Source: Lacticaseibacillus yichunensis | GTDB taxonomy: Bacteria; Bacillota; Bacilli; Lactobacillales; Lactobacillaceae | Assembly: GCF_003946405.1 (NCBI RefSeq) | Contig: NZ_RHOG01000001.1 | Location: forward strand, 1-64,000 | Length of the DNA: 64,000 nt | Direction: 5' to 3' | In this document: positions 202-56,380 of the stretch, piece by piece | How positions within the stretch are numbered: position 1 is the first letter of the stretch | Layout: every line of letters begins with the position of its first letter | Notes under the pieces: generated by a model | Told to the model about the DNA's origin: nothing | Databases searched by the model: none | The model's input: the letters and a program-made list of their open reading frames with translations, nothing else | Program-made: the position numbers and the translations under genes

Positions 202-1413
202 TTAAGAGAATTCAGCTTTCAACTGGGTAACAATGCTCTGAGCAATGCTCTGAATAGAATCAATATCCACAGCAAACCACTCACGCGGCTTAACAATTCG
301 CCCGTTAGCTGCGGTAATATCTACATCCAACTGATATTCTGCTAATGCATGATGCAGTGCAGTTTCCAGCGCTTCGGCTTTCAAGTTTACCACTTTAATT
401 TCGCCGACAAGTCGTACTGGACCATATAGATAAGTTGACTCATTCTCAGCGTTGGCAATTCTTGTCTGTACGGATCCGGTTGTAAACCCAACCTTGTATA
501 GCGGATGCTCAGCTTGTATTCGCTTAATCTGAGGGTTGTCGCTCAAAGATTCCAGTATATATATGAACCCCGTCACGTGGTCGTCACTTGTCAGCTCAAT
601 CCCATGCTCAACTTCCGTAACAATCCTACCTTGACGCCCATACAGAGATGAAGCAAGCCCATTTCGAGTCGGGTTGTTTTCAGTCCCGTTATCGTAGATT
701 ACATGCATCCTTGCGTCGGTTTTCCGATTGCTATTGTCATTAAGCTCAACTTCTTCGCCAATCTCATCAATATACAGTAACTGTCCCTTAAGAACGTAGA
801 AGTGCTTGCCCAGCAACTCATAATTTTTGAATGGGCGAAGCTGCCGCTGACCAGAGGCAATTTCAGCCTGAACCTTGTGGAACATAGCCTCGTACTGACT
901 GAATTCCTTCATCTGCTTACGCTGAGAAATCACTTCCGGACGGTTTTCTTGCTCACGCTGAATTTCATTGAGCTTCTTGGTATCGAACAACTTACTACCG
1001 GCAGCTTGCTGATCACTTTTCTTAAACAGAATGGAATCATCGCTAAGAATATCGTCCAGTGATGCAAAATCCTGCTTTTCGTTTTTCACAATTTCATTCA
1101 ACGCCGGACCGTCTTCATGAACAGTTAGTAACCCCGCTTTATCATACGGCATCAACAAATCCCGGCGGTCTGGATCTTCACGGATACCTTTTAATCGACT
1201 TGCCAACTTGCGCTGTTTCATCTGTGACGGATCTCGCAGCTTCTGTGGCTCGTTACCGTCATGAGCAATCACCCAGTCGGTTATCTCCTGAAATCCTTCT
1301 AGCGTGGGGTCATAGCTTACAGGAGCATGTTTGGGTTTGCTAGCGAGCAAAGACGTTGCGTCCGGATCACTAAAAATGTCATCCAGCGACCGAATCAAGT
1401 TTTGATTATCCAT
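202..1413 (-). CDS. GIY-YIG nuclease family protein of a defence module
   Basis: A 403-residue protein. The last ~130 residues carry the GIY-YIG fold of the T5orf172/Mug113 type: GFIYIL supplies the GIY strand, LYKVGFT the YIG strand, VQTRIANA the conserved Arg helix and ALETALHHAL the acidic helix. The N-terminal ~270 residues have two short DDIF/DDIL repeats (near residues 11 and 118) and a basic, charged stretch, but no domain I can name. The start at 1413 has a GGAGG site inside the preceding helicase gene, and the two frames overlap by 8 bases (ATGGATAA), implying translational coupling. As the only clear nuclease in the cluster it probably cuts unmodified DNA. Base composition is AT-richer than the surrounding chromosome. 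Confidence 0.8.
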   Translation of the reverse strand: MDNQNLIRSLDDIFSDPDATSLLASKPKHAPVSYDPTLEGFQEITDWVIAHDGNEPQKLRDPSQMKQRKLASRLKGIREDPDRRDLLMPYDKAGLLTVHEDGPALNEIVKNEKQDFASLDDILSDDSILFKKSDQQAAGSKLFDTKKLNEIQREQENRPEVISQRKQMKEFSQYEAMFHKVQAEIASGQRQLRPFKNYELLGKHFYVLKGQLLYIDEIGEEVELNDNSNRKTDARMHVIYDNGTENNPTRNGLASSLYGRQGRIVTEVEHGIELTSDDHVTGFIYILESLSDNPQIKRIQAEHPLYKVGFTTGSVQTRIANAENESTYLYGPVRLVGEIKVVNLKAEALETALHHALAEYQLDVDITAANGRIVKPREWFAVDIDSIQSIAQSIVTQLKAEFS

Positions 1414-7141: not shown

Positions 7142-7218
7142 GCACCGCTCCCAGATCACTGATATTAGTGGCTCTAACAACGGTAAGGAACATAAGCACA
7201 GACTGACGAACTAACCTA

Positions 7219-7299
7219 AAAATCCCCGCCAACTTAGCCCTCAATTCGGCCCAAACTTGGCGGGGATTTTGGCGGGGAACGTAACAAATCCCCCGCCAA
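7219..7299 (-). terminator. guaA: guaA terminator with a second overlapping hairpin
   Basis: A perfect 14-bp inverted repeat (AAAATCCCCGCCAA at 7219-7232 and its complement at 7257-7270) is followed on the minus strand by a short T run, giving a typical intrinsic terminator for guaA. Immediately beside it GGCGGGG at 7271-7277 can pair with CCCCGCC at 7291-7297, so the four arms are interchangeable. Confidence 0.75.
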
Positions 7300-7366
7300 T
7301 CGTATCCTTTGTATCTTCCGAAAATGCCGTTAAATCAACATTCCGGGTTCAATTTACATGTACCTT

Positions 7367-8917
7367 TTATTCCCACTCTACAGTTGCCGGCGGCTTGCTC
7401 GTGATATCGTACACGACGCGGTTGACATGCGCCACTTCGTTGACAATGCGAGCCGAGATCTTCTGCAAGACGTTCCAGTCGATGCGGGCAAAGTCGGCAG
7501 TCATGCCGTCGATCGAGGTGATTGCACGAACCGCGATGGTGTAATCGTAGGTCCGGCCATCACCCATGACGCCGACGGAGCGGAAGCCTGGCAAAACCGT
7601 GAAGTACTGCCAGATTTCTTCCTGAAGGCCGGCTTTTGCGATCTCGTCACGCAGGACCCAATCGGAATCGCGGACAATCTCGAGTTTTTCGCGGGTCACT
7701 TCGCCGAGAACGCGGATGCCGAGGCCTGGGCCTGGGAATGGCTGACGCCAAACGAGGTCATGCGGCAGGCCCAAGCGTTCGCCGAGCTCACGTGCTTCAT
7801 CCTTGAAGAGCTTGTTGAGCGGTTCGATGAGCTTGAACTGGAGGTCTTTTGGCAGGCCGCCGACGTTATGATGGGACTTGATCGTCTGGGCGGTGTCGGT
7901 GCCGGATTCCACGACGTCGGTGTAGAGTGTGCCTTGCGCGAGGTATTCGATGCCGTGCAGCTTGCGAGCTTCGTCGTTGAAGACTTCGATGAAGTCGCGG
8001 CCGATGATCTTGCGCTTTTGCTCAGGATCCGTGACGCCGGCGAGGTCGCCGAGGAAACGGTCCGCGGCGTCGACCTTGATGATCTTCACGCCGAGGCGGC
8101 CGTTGAGGCTCTCCATGACCTGGTCCGCTTCGTTTTTGCGCAGCAGGCCGTGATCCACGAAGATGCAGGTCAGCTGGTCGCCGATTGCCTTATTGAGCAG
8201 CGCCGCAACAACGGAGCTGTCCACGCCGCCGGAAAGGCCAAGTAAGACTTGCTTGTCGCCGACTTCTTCGCGAATGGAGTCGATCTGGTCGTCGATGAAG
8301 TCGCCCATGTTCCAGTTCGCGGTTGCGCCGCAAACATCGAAGGCAAAATGGTGCAGGATCTCGTGGCCATACTGGGTGTTTTGGACCTCAGCGTGGAACT
8401 GGATGCCGTAGAATTTGCGTTCGTCGTCGTCCATCGCAGAGATTGGGCAATTTTTCGAGGTTGCGGTGACGCGGAAGCCGGCTGGCGCCTTTTGCACGAG
8501 GTCGCCGTGGCTCATCCAAACGGTCTGGGTGGCTGGCAGGTCCTTGAAGACAGCGGCGGTCGGATCCGTCACCGTGATCTCGGTCTTGCCGTATTCACGG
8601 TTGCTGGCGGGCTCAACATCCCCGCCGAGGCGCTGGGCCATCAGCTGCATGCCGTAGCACACACCCAAGATCGGAATGCCGAGTTCGAAGAGCTCATCGT
8701 CAACGCCAAGCGCGCCTTTGTCATACACCGAATTGGGACCACCAGAGAAGATGATGCCCTTTGGCGCGATCTTGCGCACTTCATCTGCCGTGATCGTGTG
8801 CGGCTTGAGCTCGGAATAAATGCCGAACTCGCGAATGCGCCGCGTGATCAATTGATTGTACTGACTGCCATAATCGAGGACGATGATCTTATCGTAATCC
8901 TGGGTCTGGTTTGCCAC
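7367..8917 (-). CDS. guaA: GMP synthase (glutamine-hydrolysing)
   Basis: Converts XMP to GMP using glutamine and ATP, the last step of guanine nucleotide synthesis. The N-terminal class I glutaminase shows [10 protein letters not shown] with the catalytic Cys and HGD/FHAEV elements. The ATP-pyrophosphatase domain shows the P-loop [17 protein letters not shown], and the C-terminus is the GMP synthase dimerisation domain ending PPATVEWE. Length (~516 residues) is normal. I favour the GTG at 8917 ([10 protein letters not shown]) because AAGGGAG lies 11 bases upstream, whereas the GTG at 8929 almost touches that site. The extreme 3' end reads GAGTGGGAATAA on the coding strand, a known integration target for genomic islands. 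Confidence 0.97.
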
Positions 8918-52473: not shown

Positions 52474-53730
52474 TTAGTCAGTCACATTGACCAGGAAGTA
52501 TTTCTTCTTCCCGCGCCGGACAATCACATATTTGCCGTCAAAATGACTCGCCGGATCGATCACCGCGTCAAGGTCCTGTTCGCGCTGGCCATTGACCGTG
52601 ATGGCGCCATTTTGCACGTCTTCGCGGGCCTGACGCCGCGATGGCTCGATGCCCGTCGTATCGACCAGCCAGGTGATGATGTTTTCAGCGACAGCCGGCG
52701 ACGACTTTTGTGGCACCTGGGAAAAGCCCTGCTTGATCTCCTCTGCAGTCAGGTCCTGAACATCGCCGGAAAACAGCGCGGCGGAGATCGCCTCGGCCTG
52801 CTTGACCGCCTCTTCGCCATGAACGAAGGTGGTGACTTCCTCGGCCAGGCGCCGCTGTGCTTCCCGCTTTTCCGGATGCGCCTGCATGGCTTCGACCAGT
52901 TCTGCGATCTCGTCTTGCGACAGGAAGGTGAAAAACTTGAGGAATTTTTCCACATCGGCATCGTCTTGGTTGAACCAGAACTGGTAGAACTCATACGGCG
53001 AGGTCTTCTCTGGATCCAGCCAAACAGCGCCACCAGCGGATTTGCCAAACTTGGTGCCATCGGACTTGAGCATCAGCGGGTTGGTCAACCCGTAAACTTT
53101 GGCATCCGCGCCTTCGATCTTATGAATCAGATCGATGCCAGCGGTGATATTGCCCCACTGGTCGGCGCCGCCCAGCTGCACCTGCACGTCCTCGTTTTGA
53201 TAGAGCTTGAGGAAATCCACCGACTGAAGGATCTGGTACGTGAATTCGGTGAAGGAGATTCCACTTTCAAGCCGACTGGCGACAACTTCCTTGGCCAGCA
53301 TTTGGTTGACCGGGAATAATTTGCCGTAATCGCGCAGAAAATCCAGCAATGAGATCTTGGACAGCCAACTGTAATTGTCGACGATCTCAAAGTTGTCGCG
53401 GCCAAACATTCGCTCCATTTGTGCCGTCAGCTTCTTGGCATTATTTTGAATCGTTTCCATCGACTGCAGCACACGCTCGGAATTGCGACCGCTGGGATCC
53501 CCAATCGAGCCGGTCCCACTTCCAATCAGGATCACCGGCTTGTGCCCCATCAGCTGAAAACGTTTGAGCATCATAAACGGAATCAGATGCCCGACATGAA
53601 GCGAGTCGCCGGTCGGATCGGTTCCGACATAGATGCCGACATGTTTTTCCGTCGTTAATTTGCGAAGCCCTTCCTCATCTGTCATCTGATTCAGCGCACC
53701 GCGCCAGGCGAGTTCATCTAAGATATTCAT
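52474..53730 (-). CDS. tyrS: Tyrosyl-tRNA synthetase
   Basis: A 418-residue class I synthetase charging tRNA-Tyr. The HIGH-type motif is GDSLHVGHLIP, tyrosine-binding segments include YVGTDPTG and QLGGADQWGNITAG, the KMSKS-type loop is KSDGTKFGKSAGG, and an S4 RNA-binding domain ends the protein (QAREDVQNGAITVNG). The ATG at 53730 has GGAGG six bases upstream; the frame stays open upstream but without a site. Controlled by a tyrosine T-box leader. Confidence 0.97.
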   Translation of the reverse strand: MNILDELAWRGALNQMTDEEGLRKLTTEKHVGIYVGTDPTGDSLHVGHLIPFMMLKRFQLMGHKPVILIGSGTGSIGDPSGRNSERVLQSMETIQNNAKKLTAQMERMFGRDNFEIVDNYSWLSKISLLDFLRDYGKLFPVNQMLAKEVVASRLESGISFTEFTYQILQSVDFLKLYQNEDVQVQLGGADQWGNITAGIDLIHKIEGADAKVYGLTNPLMLKSDGTKFGKSAGGAVWLDPEKTSPYEFYQFWFNQDDADVEKFLKFFTFLSQDEIAELVEAMQAHPEKREAQRRLAEEVTTFVHGEEAVKQAEAISAALFSGDVQDLTAEEIKQGFSQVPQKSSPAVAENIITWLVDTTGIEPSRRQAREDVQNGAITVNGQREQDLDAVIDPASHFDGKYVIVRRGKKKYFLVNVTD

Positions 53731-53761: not shown

Positions 53762-53982
53762 AAAAAAGTCCCTGCTTGCAATTTGCAAACAGGGACGAGT
53801 CATCGCGGTACCACCCTTGTTATGGCCGAGGCCATCACTTGTCGATGCATAGCGGCATCACCCGCGATCAAAATGACTGAGCGTAATTTCGCGTATTGTT
53901 GCGGGATCGGCTCACAGCGACTGCCGACTCTCTGGGACCGCGCAACAAAGCTACTGAACTCTTTCGGTCGAATTATTAATGT
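53762..53982 (-). promoter_or_regulatory. Tyr-specific T-box leader and terminator of tyrS
   Basis: The T-box sequence AGGGTGGTACCGCG is at 53817-53804 on the minus strand, followed by the terminator GTCCCTG...CAGGGAC (53796-53768) and a T run. Stem I starts near 53975 with AGAGAGTCGG, and the specifier loop CAATACGCGA presents UAC (Tyr) at 53895-53893. An extended -10 TGCTATGCT lies at about 53997-53989. Uncharged tRNA-Tyr should pair and switch the terminator off. Confidence 0.93.
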
Positions 53983-54095: not shown

Positions 54096-54322
54096 CTATA
54101 CTCGCCTCGGTCCCTCTTTACATTTCAAATCGTATTTGCCAGGCGAAATGTGTTCTTTATTGAACAATCGATTTAACCAGATTCAGGAGGTAATTCCGCC
54201 GCCGCAAAGATGAGTTTGTGGAAGCAGATAGCCTATATTACCGCCGTCATAATGCGGGTTTTCTAGAAACGTCTCGAAGAATCATTTACGTATATTGTAC
54301 ACATTTTTTACAACCTAAAATG

Positions 54323-54351
54323 TTGACGTATTCGCTTACCAGGGTTATTAT
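54323..54351 (+). promoter_or_regulatory. Strong promoter of the putative non-coding RNA
   Basis: TTGACG (54323-54328) and TATTAT (54346-54351) are exactly 17 bases apart, with an overlapping TATAAT at 54349-54354. No gene on this strand follows within 1 kb, which points to an RNA product. Confidence 0.75.
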
Positions 54352-54357
54352 AATCGT

Positions 54358-54646
54358 GACACTGAGAGGCGTGGAGGAGCTGGCCACGAGTTCTCTCCCA
54401 GCGTCGGTCAGTCCGGCGGGAACCAACCCGCGACCCACCCCGAGCGACGCAATGACGGTTACCTGCAGTAAGGGGGTAACCCAAAGGGCTTAAACGGACC
54501 CGGTACTGGGAAGTACCGGAAAAATGTACCACCTGCATTTCAAACTGAATAAGTTCCCTAACACCGACGGGAGGAATCTCGAAAATGAAGAGGGAAAGGG
54601 ATCCAACCTAAAATTTGGCAGGCCGGAGCACGCTTCGGCCTGTTTG
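54358..54646 (+). ncRNA. Putative structured non-coding RNA, family not recognised
   Basis: About 290 bases between a strong promoter and a hairpin CAGGCCG/CGGCCTG (54619-54642) followed by TTT. The region is GC-rich after an AT-rich upstream part and has no credible ORF. Stems visible in order: GTGG/CCAC within GAGAG/CTCTC (54363-54397); GCGTCG/CGACGC (54401-54450) enclosing GCGGG/CCCGC; GGTTACC/GGTAACC (54457-54482); CCGGTAC/GTACCGG (54499-54519); TTCCCT/AGGGAA (54554-54597). It does not match RNase P, tmRNA, SRP, 6S or a riboswitch I know. The stretch 54100-54320 before it is AT-rich and shows no supported gene. Confidence 0.6.
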
Positions 54647-54662
54647 CTGTGCCCTCAATAAG

Positions 54663-54725
54663 AAAAGACCCCAGGAACGTTCAGGCGCTGCGACATTGCG
54701 CCACCTGAACGTTCCTGGGGTCTTT
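54663..54725 (-). terminator. Bidirectional terminator between arsR and the RNA gene
   Basis: A very long perfect inverted repeat (AAAGACCCCAGGAACGTTCA with its complement at 54706-54725), loop ~16 bases, T residues on both strands. It ends arsR and would stop any readthrough from the RNA gene. Confidence 0.9.
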
Positions 54726-54742
54726 ACGACTATATCAATTAT

Positions 54743-55078
54743 TCACAGTCCCTGACTCTGTCGGCGCAGTGCCCGGGTCAGGCGCTCGAGACGGGCGATC
54801 GTATCGTCGAGTGTCAAATAATAGTAGACAACATTGCCCACCTGCCGAGAATCCACCATGCCGATGTCGCGCAAGGTCTTGAGATGATGCGACGTGGCCG
54901 GCTGAGACAGGCCAATTTTCTCCGCGAGGTCGTTGACCTTGATGCCGCGATCTCCGGAGACTTCCCCAAGTAACATGATCAGCTTCTGCCGATTGGCGTT
55001 CGACAACGCGTTCAGATGACCGATGTCGAGCTTGAATTCATTCAATGCCTCTTGCTGCGCTGCAGAATACTCCGTCAT
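54743..55078 (-). CDS. ArsR-family transcriptional regulator
   Basis: A 111-residue winged-helix regulator. The recognition region is LAEKIGLSQPATSHHLKTLR (~50-70) and the wing GMVDSRQVGNVVYYYLTLD. The metal-binding ELCVCDL motif is absent, with DLAEKIGLS in its place, so it probably does not sense arsenic or cadmium through the alpha-3 site. It is divergent from apbE across the repeat E pair. Target unknown. Confidence 0.85.
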   Translation of the reverse strand: MTEYSAAQQEALNEFKLDIGHLNALSNANRQKLIMLLGEVSGDRGIKVNDLAEKIGLSQPATSHHLKTLRDIGMVDSRQVGNVVYYYLTLDDTIARLERLTRALRRQSQGL

Positions 55079-55122
55079 GATGACGCCTCCCCAAAGTTTC
55101 GGTGCTGAAACAGCCTGTGCGT

Positions 55123-55243
55123 TGTCGGGCTCTGGTGCGCATCGCCGAGACAGCTAGGTACGCCCATCACTCGGTGGCAAGATGCGCCACCAAGCGCTGG
55201 GCTAGCCTACCTGCTCGGCCATGGTCGCGCACCTTCGCACCCA
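55123..55243 (+). repeat. Hairpin repeat family, element E1
   Basis: A ~121-bp element starting TGTCGGGCTCTGG and ending CGCACCCA. Outer arms GCCGAG/CTCGGC and inner GGTGGC/GCCACC pair. It is in tandem with E2 in the divergent gap between arsR and apbE (55079-55444); nothing else is seen there except the apbE promoter. Confidence 0.75.
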
Positions 55244-55245
55244 GA

Positions 55246-55355
55246 TGTCGGGCTCTGGTGCGCATCGTCGAAACAGTTAGGTACGCCCATCACTCGCTGG
55301 CAAGATGCGCGGGCTAGCCTACCTGCTTGACCATGACCGCGCGCCTCCGCACCCA
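55246..55355 (+). repeat. Hairpin repeat family, element E2 (internally deleted)
   Basis: A ~110-bp near copy of E1, clearly a recent duplicate. It has lost the inner CCACCAAGCGCT arm, so its apical stem is broken, and it carries several point changes in the outer stem. Confidence 0.75.
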
Positions 55356-55444: not shown

Positions 55445-56380
55445 ATGAGTGAATATGTCTCGTTCAAAGCACTTGGCGCGACCAACGACTTGACGATCTA
55501 TGGCGGCGGCACCCCGGAAACATTTGACCACAGCATCGCGCTGGTCTCAGCCTATTCCCGCCTCTTATCCTTTTATGATAAAGACTCCATCATTAGCCAG
55601 ATCAATCAAAATGCTGGCGTGGCGCCGGTGACAATCGAGGTGCGCCCAGTTTTCAACCTGATCGCACGGGCCGTGGCCTGGAGCAAGCGCGGCGCGGGGT
55701 ACAATGCGCTGATCGGGCCGCTGGTCGCCTTGTGGCATATCGGCTTCGATGACGCCGAAGTGCCTGACGAAGCGGCCATTCAGGAAAAATTGCGGCTGTG
55801 TGACCCAGATCTGGTGGCGCTTGACGGCGAGAACCAGACCGTTTTTCTCACCCGCGCCGGCATGGAACTGGATCTGGGCGGCATCGCCAAGGGATTCATC
55901 CTCGATGAGCTCAAGCGGCTATGGGCCAAGGAAGGCGTCACCGGTGGGCGGATCAATTTGGCCGGCAACGAGGTGTTGTTCCGCAATAGCGCCTCGAACA
56001 TTCCGCTGTGGCAAGAGCCCATCGCTGATCCGCGCGACCCAGACGCTTTGCCGATCGCGACCTTGACCACGGCGCCAAACGCAGTGGTCACCACCGGCAT
56101 CTTTTTCCGCCACTTCGATAAAAATGGCCAGATGTATCACCACTTGCTGGATCCAAAGACCGGCCGGCCCGTCGACTCCGACATGGCCAGCATCACCGTT
56201 GTCGCCGACTCCGCGGAAACCGCCGATGTGCTCTCCTCAGTCGGCTTTTACCAAGGCCTGCCGGGTGGCCTGGACTTCATCGAAAACGAAGGCGCAGAGG
56301 CGATCTTCATCACAAAGGATATCCGCATGACCCAAACCAGTGGCCTGCGCGAGACCCTCCTGCCGACCATGGGCAACTGA
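55445..56380 (+). CDS. apbE: FAD:protein FMN transferase (ApbE)
   Basis: A 311-residue flavin transferase that attaches FMN to Thr/Ser of extracytoplasmic or redox partner proteins using FAD. Signature parts are MELDLGGIAKGFILDELK, GRINLAGNEVLF (the usual NLGGN is NLAGN here), TTGIFFRHF and HLLDPKTGRPVDSDM with the metal-binding Asp. No signal peptide is seen, as in other lactobacillar ApbE copies acting in the cytoplasm. AAGGAAGG precedes the ATG. No obvious flavinylated partner lies beside it. Confidence 0.92.
   Translation: MSEYVSFKALGATNDLTIYGGGTPETFDHSIALVSAYSRLLSFYDKDSIISQINQNAGVAPVTIEVRPVFNLIARAVAWSKRGAGYNALIGPLVALWHIGFDDAEVPDEAAIQEKLRLCDPDLVALDGENQTVFLTRAGMELDLGGIAKGFILDELKRLWAKEGVTGGRINLAGNEVLFRNSASNIPLWQEPIADPRDPDALPIATLTTAPNAVVTTGIFFRHFDKNGQMYHHLLDPKTGRPVDSDMASITVVADSAETADVLSSVGFYQGLPGGLDFIENEGAEAIFITKDIRMTQTSGLRETLLPTMGN

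Follow-up and report, generated by a model that had tools for sequence, protein, structure and literature searches.

The window analysed here comprises 64,000 nucleotides of Lacticaseibacillus yichunensis (contig NZ_RHOG01000001.1, positions 1 to 64,000). Between tyrS and an arsR-family regulator gene, both on the minus strand, it carries a plus-strand promoter followed by a structured RNA. This RNA belongs to a dispersed multicopy family, termed type 1 here, some members of which lie divergent to the gene for a protein, A, that is in places followed by the gene for a second protein, B. The locus contains the following features:

54305–54322, plus strand: upstream promoter region, loosely common to the copies in their alignment
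54323–54328, plus strand: −35 box TTGACG, retained across the copies
54346–54351, plus strand: −10 box TATTAT, which is TATACT in the other promoter class
54358–54652, plus strand: type-1 structured RNA body, tyrS copy, 295 nt, with sharp borders in the 13-copy alignment
about 54617–54647, plus strand: 3′ terminal hairpin of the RNA, then TTTGCTGTGC, with no U-run
54664–54725, no strand assigned: 62-nt inverted repeat, 84% identical to its own complement, likely a bidirectional terminator
52474–53730, minus strand: tyrS gene (start codon by eye), outside the system
53788–53976, minus strand: T-box leader of tyrS, by match to the Rfam model
54743–55078, minus strand: arsR-family regulator gene, outside the system as far as seen

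The two promoter boxes agree with the consensus at 10 of 12 letters across a 17-nt spacer (TTGACG-N17-TATTAT), which bears out the near-consensus promoter of the first-pass annotation. This site ranks top among four found on both strands between 53000 and 56500, a region that on shuffling contains a mean of 2.2 sites at ≥9/12; it is not a product of chance, because the other 12 full-length copies retain both boxes and their spacing, apart from small variants (TTGATG in one copy, TATACT in a second promoter class). Over the 45 columns 5′ of the −35 box, identity is 0.80 among orthologues and 0.48 among paralogues. A 302-nt fold reaches −115.8 kcal/mol (z = −3.19), equalled by none of 100 shuffles, in keeping with the structured RNA of about 290 nt first proposed. 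The interval given for it, 54323–54646, starts at the promoter; the body common to the family is 54358–54652. Its terminal hairpin is likewise present and lacks a U-run, and the inverted repeat beyond it is likely the terminator of both the RNA and the arsR-family gene, acting in both directions.

The earlier view that no credible open reading frame (ORF) is present held up, as the longest plus-strand ORF begins 5′ of the promoter and a 45-codon frame within the RNA is disrupted by indels among the copies. An eight-codon ORF behind GGGAGG (ATG AAG AGG GAA AGG GAT CCA ACC TAA) is invariant among the full copies and could still be coding. The RNA might then be the messenger of this very short peptide, its structure being secondary, and all 13 full copies agree letter for letter over a stretch of 40-odd nt, which would suit such a role; however, GGGAGG lies within a predicted hairpin and most of the conserved length is elsewhere, and we regard a peptide messenger as very improbable.

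Searches with the Rfam release 15 covariance models yielded no match at the gathering score on the RNA, in the window or at nine related loci, and matches to the RNA strand at E ≤ 10 did not rise above chance level, consistent with an RNA of no known family. The sole gathering-score match in the whole window lies far from the RNA and is to the Listeria small RNA (sRNA) rli38, at 7217–7381 on the minus strand (61.1 bits, gathering score 49), with a GC-rich inverted repeat inside. Housekeeping RNAs had been judged not to fit, and within the window transfer-messenger RNA (tmRNA), RNase P, signal recognition particle (SRP) RNA and 6S RNA gave no Rfam match at this stretch; tmRNA sits elsewhere in the genome (G000:C13, where G000 denotes the L. 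yichunensis genome), and RNase P, SRP and 6S were judged by the window searches. At locus L212, a tetrahydrofolate riboswitch was found (280–374, plus strand; 81.5 bits).

A cis-acting leader or attenuator of an adjacent gene could be read from the position between tyrS and the arsR-family gene and from the terminator-like repeat downstream. Both neighbours, however, are on the opposite strand. On the plus strand no gene follows until apbE at 55445, approximately 790 bp past the RNA and beyond the strong inverted repeat, which agrees with the earlier remark that no same-strand gene lies within 700 bases; the RNA thus lacks the placement of such leaders, which precede the gene they regulate on its own strand. 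Copies elsewhere adjoin unrelated genes, and a cis-regulatory role, doubted from the outset, is scarcely credible. The conserved boxes of the tyrS T-box leader are plain, although its score of 73.8 bits falls below the 93 that Rfam sets for gathering. The stretch 55110–55330, between the arsR-family gene and apbE, contains by eye two GC-rich segments that resemble direct repeats (TGTCGGGCTCTGGTGCGCATCG...).

Comparison of the stretch with 60 genomes by blastn, its own included, gave matches only in its own genome and in that of a close relative, Lacticaseibacillus mingshuiensis 117-1 (G021). A full-length sequence profile finds seven type-1 copies in each; a contig end truncates one of those in L. 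yichunensis. Flanks and neighbouring genes put each of the seven pairs at corresponding positions in the two species. Conservation next to tyrS, which the first-pass annotation had proposed to check, is limited to L. mingshuiensis among 80 tyrS loci compared. Type 1 resembles a multicopy sRNA in having several closely matching genes, each with a promoter of its own (mean pairwise identity of the RNA body 94–95% in the alignment of 13 full copies). Contigs of these draft assemblies end in or near RNA genes at G000:C23, C9 and C32 and at G021:C6, C11, C2, C18 and C21, so copy numbers may be off, either because they are higher or because cut pieces belong together. Among 397 genomes of the family, searched with strict filters and few candidates scored per genome, type-1 RNA occurred in these two species only, and no homologues were found in phages, plasmids or viral contigs (one of these searches used an exact 22-letter pattern). 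A match in another genome, G014 (E = 0.049), was dropped, as by eye it resembles part of a coding frame.

Identity between copies changes abruptly at the RNA borders. Inside the RNA it is 0.95 for orthologues (six of the seven pairs, the seventh including the copy cut by a contig end) and 0.94 for paralogues within a genome; from the −35 box to the RNA start the values are 0.88 and 0.74, just downstream of the RNA 0.83 and 0.31, and further upstream 0.68 and 0.30. Paralogues that are 94% identical within the RNA and approximately 30% identical outside it indicate concerted evolution and constraint. Variants of loops and hairpins do not track orthology, and to judge from the aligned sequences the type-1 copies seem to exchange sequence with one another.

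In each of the two genomes, two type-1 copies are divergent to a gene for the 276-amino-acid protein A that lies 250–252 bp from the RNA start, and at one of these two loci B follows A; five of the seven L. yichunensis copies have no adjacent A. The first A and B proteins had no convincing match in Pfam, NCBIfam or PHROG, and when 17 A and 10 B proteins were scanned, the lowest Pfam E value, in one member, was 0.0012. A search with the 17 A sequences detected A homologues in 12 of 30 Lacticaseibacillus genomes, bearing out a weak early match in G011; B homologues, present in 8 of the 30, usually adjoin A. A and B are fused in two species, G006 and G011, where their matches share a reading frame (coordinates checked at G006:C1 near 1.518 Mb, G006:C5, G011:C3 and G011:C30). 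At G014:C29, in L. jixianensis, the frames of A and B are both open. Among 398 genomes drawn from the phylum, a search with 14 A rows (E ≤ 1e-4) recovered only the L. yichunensis genome, and no relatives of A were found in plasmids (one A as query), phages (another A) or viral contigs (a seven-row A alignment). Outside the genus, 20 genomes gave weak matches (E = 5.8e-4 to 0.0095); these fell within 651–922-amino-acid frames and were dropped as chance.

A structural model of A from 14 sequences (predicted local distance difference test (pLDDT) 80, predicted template modelling score (pTM) 0.76; an earlier model with pLDDT 51.5 was not used) has a beta barrel followed by helices. In Foldseek, bacterial SSB OB folds ranked on top, and VIA-align returned tRNA-synthetase OB domains, archaeal RPA (75 residues, root-mean-square deviation 1.8, Z = 6.3), SSB and PriB, with Z up to 6.5. 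A is predicted to have an N-terminal OB fold, although Z values of this size may reflect no more than a shared arrangement; the Pfam SSB profile matched none of the 17 A proteins at E ≤ 1. The isoelectric point of A is 9.0–11.7 in 15 of the 17, and that of B is 5.0–8.0 in nine of ten and 9.4 in the other. Neither protein matched transposase, integrase or reverse transcriptase profiles, and against the anti-phage defence profiles of PADLOC-DB six A and B proteins gave two weak partial matches only (E = 0.0043, PrrC, and 0.017). The arrangement also departs from type III toxin–antitoxin systems, in which a ToxN-like nuclease gene follows its RNA antitoxin on a shared transcript, the RNA here being divergent to A and no ToxN-like family appearing among the A and B matches in PADLOC-DB and Pfam.

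Two further multicopy RNAs lie beside A genes. Type 2 lies next to A at G000:C24 and G021:C9. It was matched 10 times in L. yichunensis, 12 times in L. mingshuiensis and not at all in the remaining 28 genomes of the genus, and several of the matches are at contig ends; six of eight L. yichunensis loci tested have a counterpart among six L. mingshuiensis loci tested. Within the type-2 copies L257 and L262, the count of short CGTTCTACC-like repeats is variable. Type 3, beside A in G014 and G018, has nine matches in G014, ten in G018 (one weak) and ten in G024 (four partial). The type-3 RNA is predicted to be about 315 nt long. Six type-3 RNAs were analysed for covariation, and 22 of 83 base pairs show two-sided changes that preserve pairing; shuffles give 8.8, none of 500 reaching 22, and controls with slid partners give 2–4. 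The 2.56-Mb L. yichunensis genome thus carries 17 RNA matches of two types, a few of them cut by contig ends. Each type adjoins its own group of A proteins, as judged by protein identities, and none of types 1–3 was found in the 18 of 30 Lacticaseibacillus genomes without A.

Some of this would be expected of a family of trans-acting, base-pairing sRNAs whose linkage to A and B is accidental: own promoters and near-identical bodies fit redundant sRNAs similar to LhrC of Listeria, and most L. yichunensis type-1 copies have no A beside them. Yet all three types were found only in A-bearing genomes, each has copies divergent to A, and the conserved sequence is largely predicted to be paired, rendering this explanation distinctly unlikely.

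A comparable arrangement of RNA and A may extend beyond the three types. Of 42 A loci, we examined the upstream sequence (235 to 1000 nt) of 40, omitting a fragment on C50 of the L. yichunensis genome and G008:C1. Upstream of distant A homologues there is again a divergent promoter and structured, gene-free sequence, and the sequences that precede different A genes can be aligned to each other over hundreds of bases in several other species. A divergent promoter of ≥9/12 is present at 25 of the 40 loci (0–3 in ten shuffle sets and 4 on the opposite strand), and a 3′ hairpin with a YTTNGYRYG motif, a pattern chosen post hoc, at 18 (0–3 in shuffles); both occur together at 14. Types 1–3 account for 15 of the 40 loci (four type 1, two type 2 and nine type 3). 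The RNA is therefore genetically linked to a putative nucleic-acid-binding protein, with exceptions at G002:C1 and G023:C72.

The distribution could also be that of a mobile element, in which RNA with A and B is, or once was, autonomous and the solo RNAs are non-autonomous copies, comparable to miniature inverted-repeat transposable elements (MITEs), that have spread. Many dispersed copies of several types per genome, the patchy occurrence of A, the broken B genes of L. yichunensis and the fall in paralogue identity outside the RNA all fit, as do L. hegangensis, L. jixianensis and L. suibinensis, which have arsR, tyrS and apbE at the corresponding place with no RNA (the L. hegangensis arsR–tyrS spacer, read directly, is too small to hold it). 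However, the full set of type-1 loci and most type-2 loci tested match between the two species, with no sign of movement since their split; promoter and structure are kept, and neither A nor B resembles a mobility enzyme in the profiles searched. We consider a mobile element unlikely. TnpB- or TnpA/TnpB-like (IS200/IS605) genes were noted by eye a few kilobases from A at G000:C24, G018:C33, G014:C28 and G002:C7; at G018:C33 such a gene sits between A and B, by chance or through a link. Genes of this kind thus occur near a few A loci and not at the tyrS locus.

Co-occurrence, back-to-back genes, type-matched groups of A, a fold like those of nucleic-acid-binding proteins and RNA genes that outnumber the protein genes make an RNA–protein particle the strongest reading. 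We lean towards interpreting 54323–54725 as a solo gene of the dispersed type-1 RNA within a lineage-restricted Lacticaseibacillus ribonucleoprotein system. Chances are about even that this system represents an undescribed class of ribonucleoprotein, with dispersed, concertedly evolving RNA genes and dedicated OB-fold proteins, several types or groups of which share a cell.

Several observations weigh against this interpretation. Strong covariation is restricted to type 3, two-sided compensated changes being few in type 1 (2 of 84 pairs) and type 2 (5 of 62), and even in type 3 one of five measures, further pair types, did not stand out (41 compared with 39.0 in shuffles, 102 of 500 as high). 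Homology between the RNA types is limited to short motifs and a shared setting, with no significant alignment; a universal ATGAAG motif was looked for across the types and is not universal, and an alignment spanning all types is unreliable. At 15 of the 40 A loci no promoter of ≥9/12 was found and at 22 no hairpin with motif, a pattern that the opposite strand shows at 8 of 40; structured RNA is supported by conserved copies at the 15 loci of types 1–3 only, and at G002:C1 and G023:C72 at least, a protein gene takes the place of an RNA-like gap upstream of A. On the protein side, A has weak structural matches (Foldseek E no better than 0.033, none being below 0.001, and Z no higher than 6.5), the A proteins of G000:C3 and G021:C10 are not basic (isoelectric point 6.5), and of the B genes in L. 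yichunensis two each have an in-frame stop and the third is a fragment. A is open at four loci of this genome. B may thus be dispensable and A sufficient, the system may be decaying in L. yichunensis, or the draft sequence may be wrong at B.

If the RNA–protein particle is real, its unit would be a structured RNA of approximately 300–370 nt, expressed from a sigma-A-type promoter, with the A gene divergent and often with B behind it. By itself or together with B, A would bind its own RNA type, and the resulting particle would act in trans. Solo copies, including that at tyrS, could increase the supply of RNA beyond that of protein, and the excess might serve as a particle scaffold or as a sponge that titrates the OB-fold proteins. 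RNA family, structure, copy number, conservation, linkage to A and co-occurrence come from computation, and from them we infer transcription, RNA–protein binding, action in trans and a cellular purpose. RNA, A and B would together form a new genetic system, with no known RNA or protein family matched and with a function of the putative kind outlined here. The literature covered, from which most subscription journals are absent, contained nothing comparable to the RNA–A–B system.

In bacteria, large structured RNAs that have proteins of their own are few; several proved to be central, such as RNase P, SRP RNA, tmRNA, OMEGA RNAs and bridge RNAs. The Lacticaseibacillus RNA evolves as a gene family with homogenized copies, matches no described RNA or protein family in the searches reported here, and has more copies than the usual number of rRNA operons.

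ROOL, GOLLD and OLE are described as ornate structured non-coding RNAs of unknown function; GOLLD takes its name from Lactobacillales, and a long, abundant RNA is reported from Lactobacillus salivarius (PMC5643018, PMC12286853). Type 1 resembles them in being a structured non-coding RNA with no assigned function, and differs in having no Rfam match and in its linkage to A and B. ROOL, GOLLD and OLE are larger and present in Rfam, and we know of no A–B partner for any of them. LhrC is a multicopy bacterial sRNA with several genes of one kind per genome (PMC4132741). The Lacticaseibacillus RNAs differ in length, in being dispersed and in being tied to proteins; LhrC is much shorter and partly tandem. 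CsrB and RsmZ RNAs titrate a protein, and a possible likeness is that excess structured RNA sequesters an RNA-binding protein, although the candidate partner here has an OB fold and its gene is divergent to that of the RNA; no link to CsrA was seen, and none was sought. PrgE is described as a bacterial OB-fold protein (PMC11137577). A resembles SSB, PriB and PrgE in its predicted N-terminal OB fold and differs in the missing Pfam SSB match, its extra helical part and its tie to an RNA gene. The OMEGA RNAs of TnpB and IscB and the HEARO RNA are structured RNAs encoded with a protein in many copies, a likeness that the present system shares, except that A and B match no nuclease or transposase profile. 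As the type-1 RNA is accompanied by candidate protein partners of its own, binding and function are directly testable in lactic acid bacteria.
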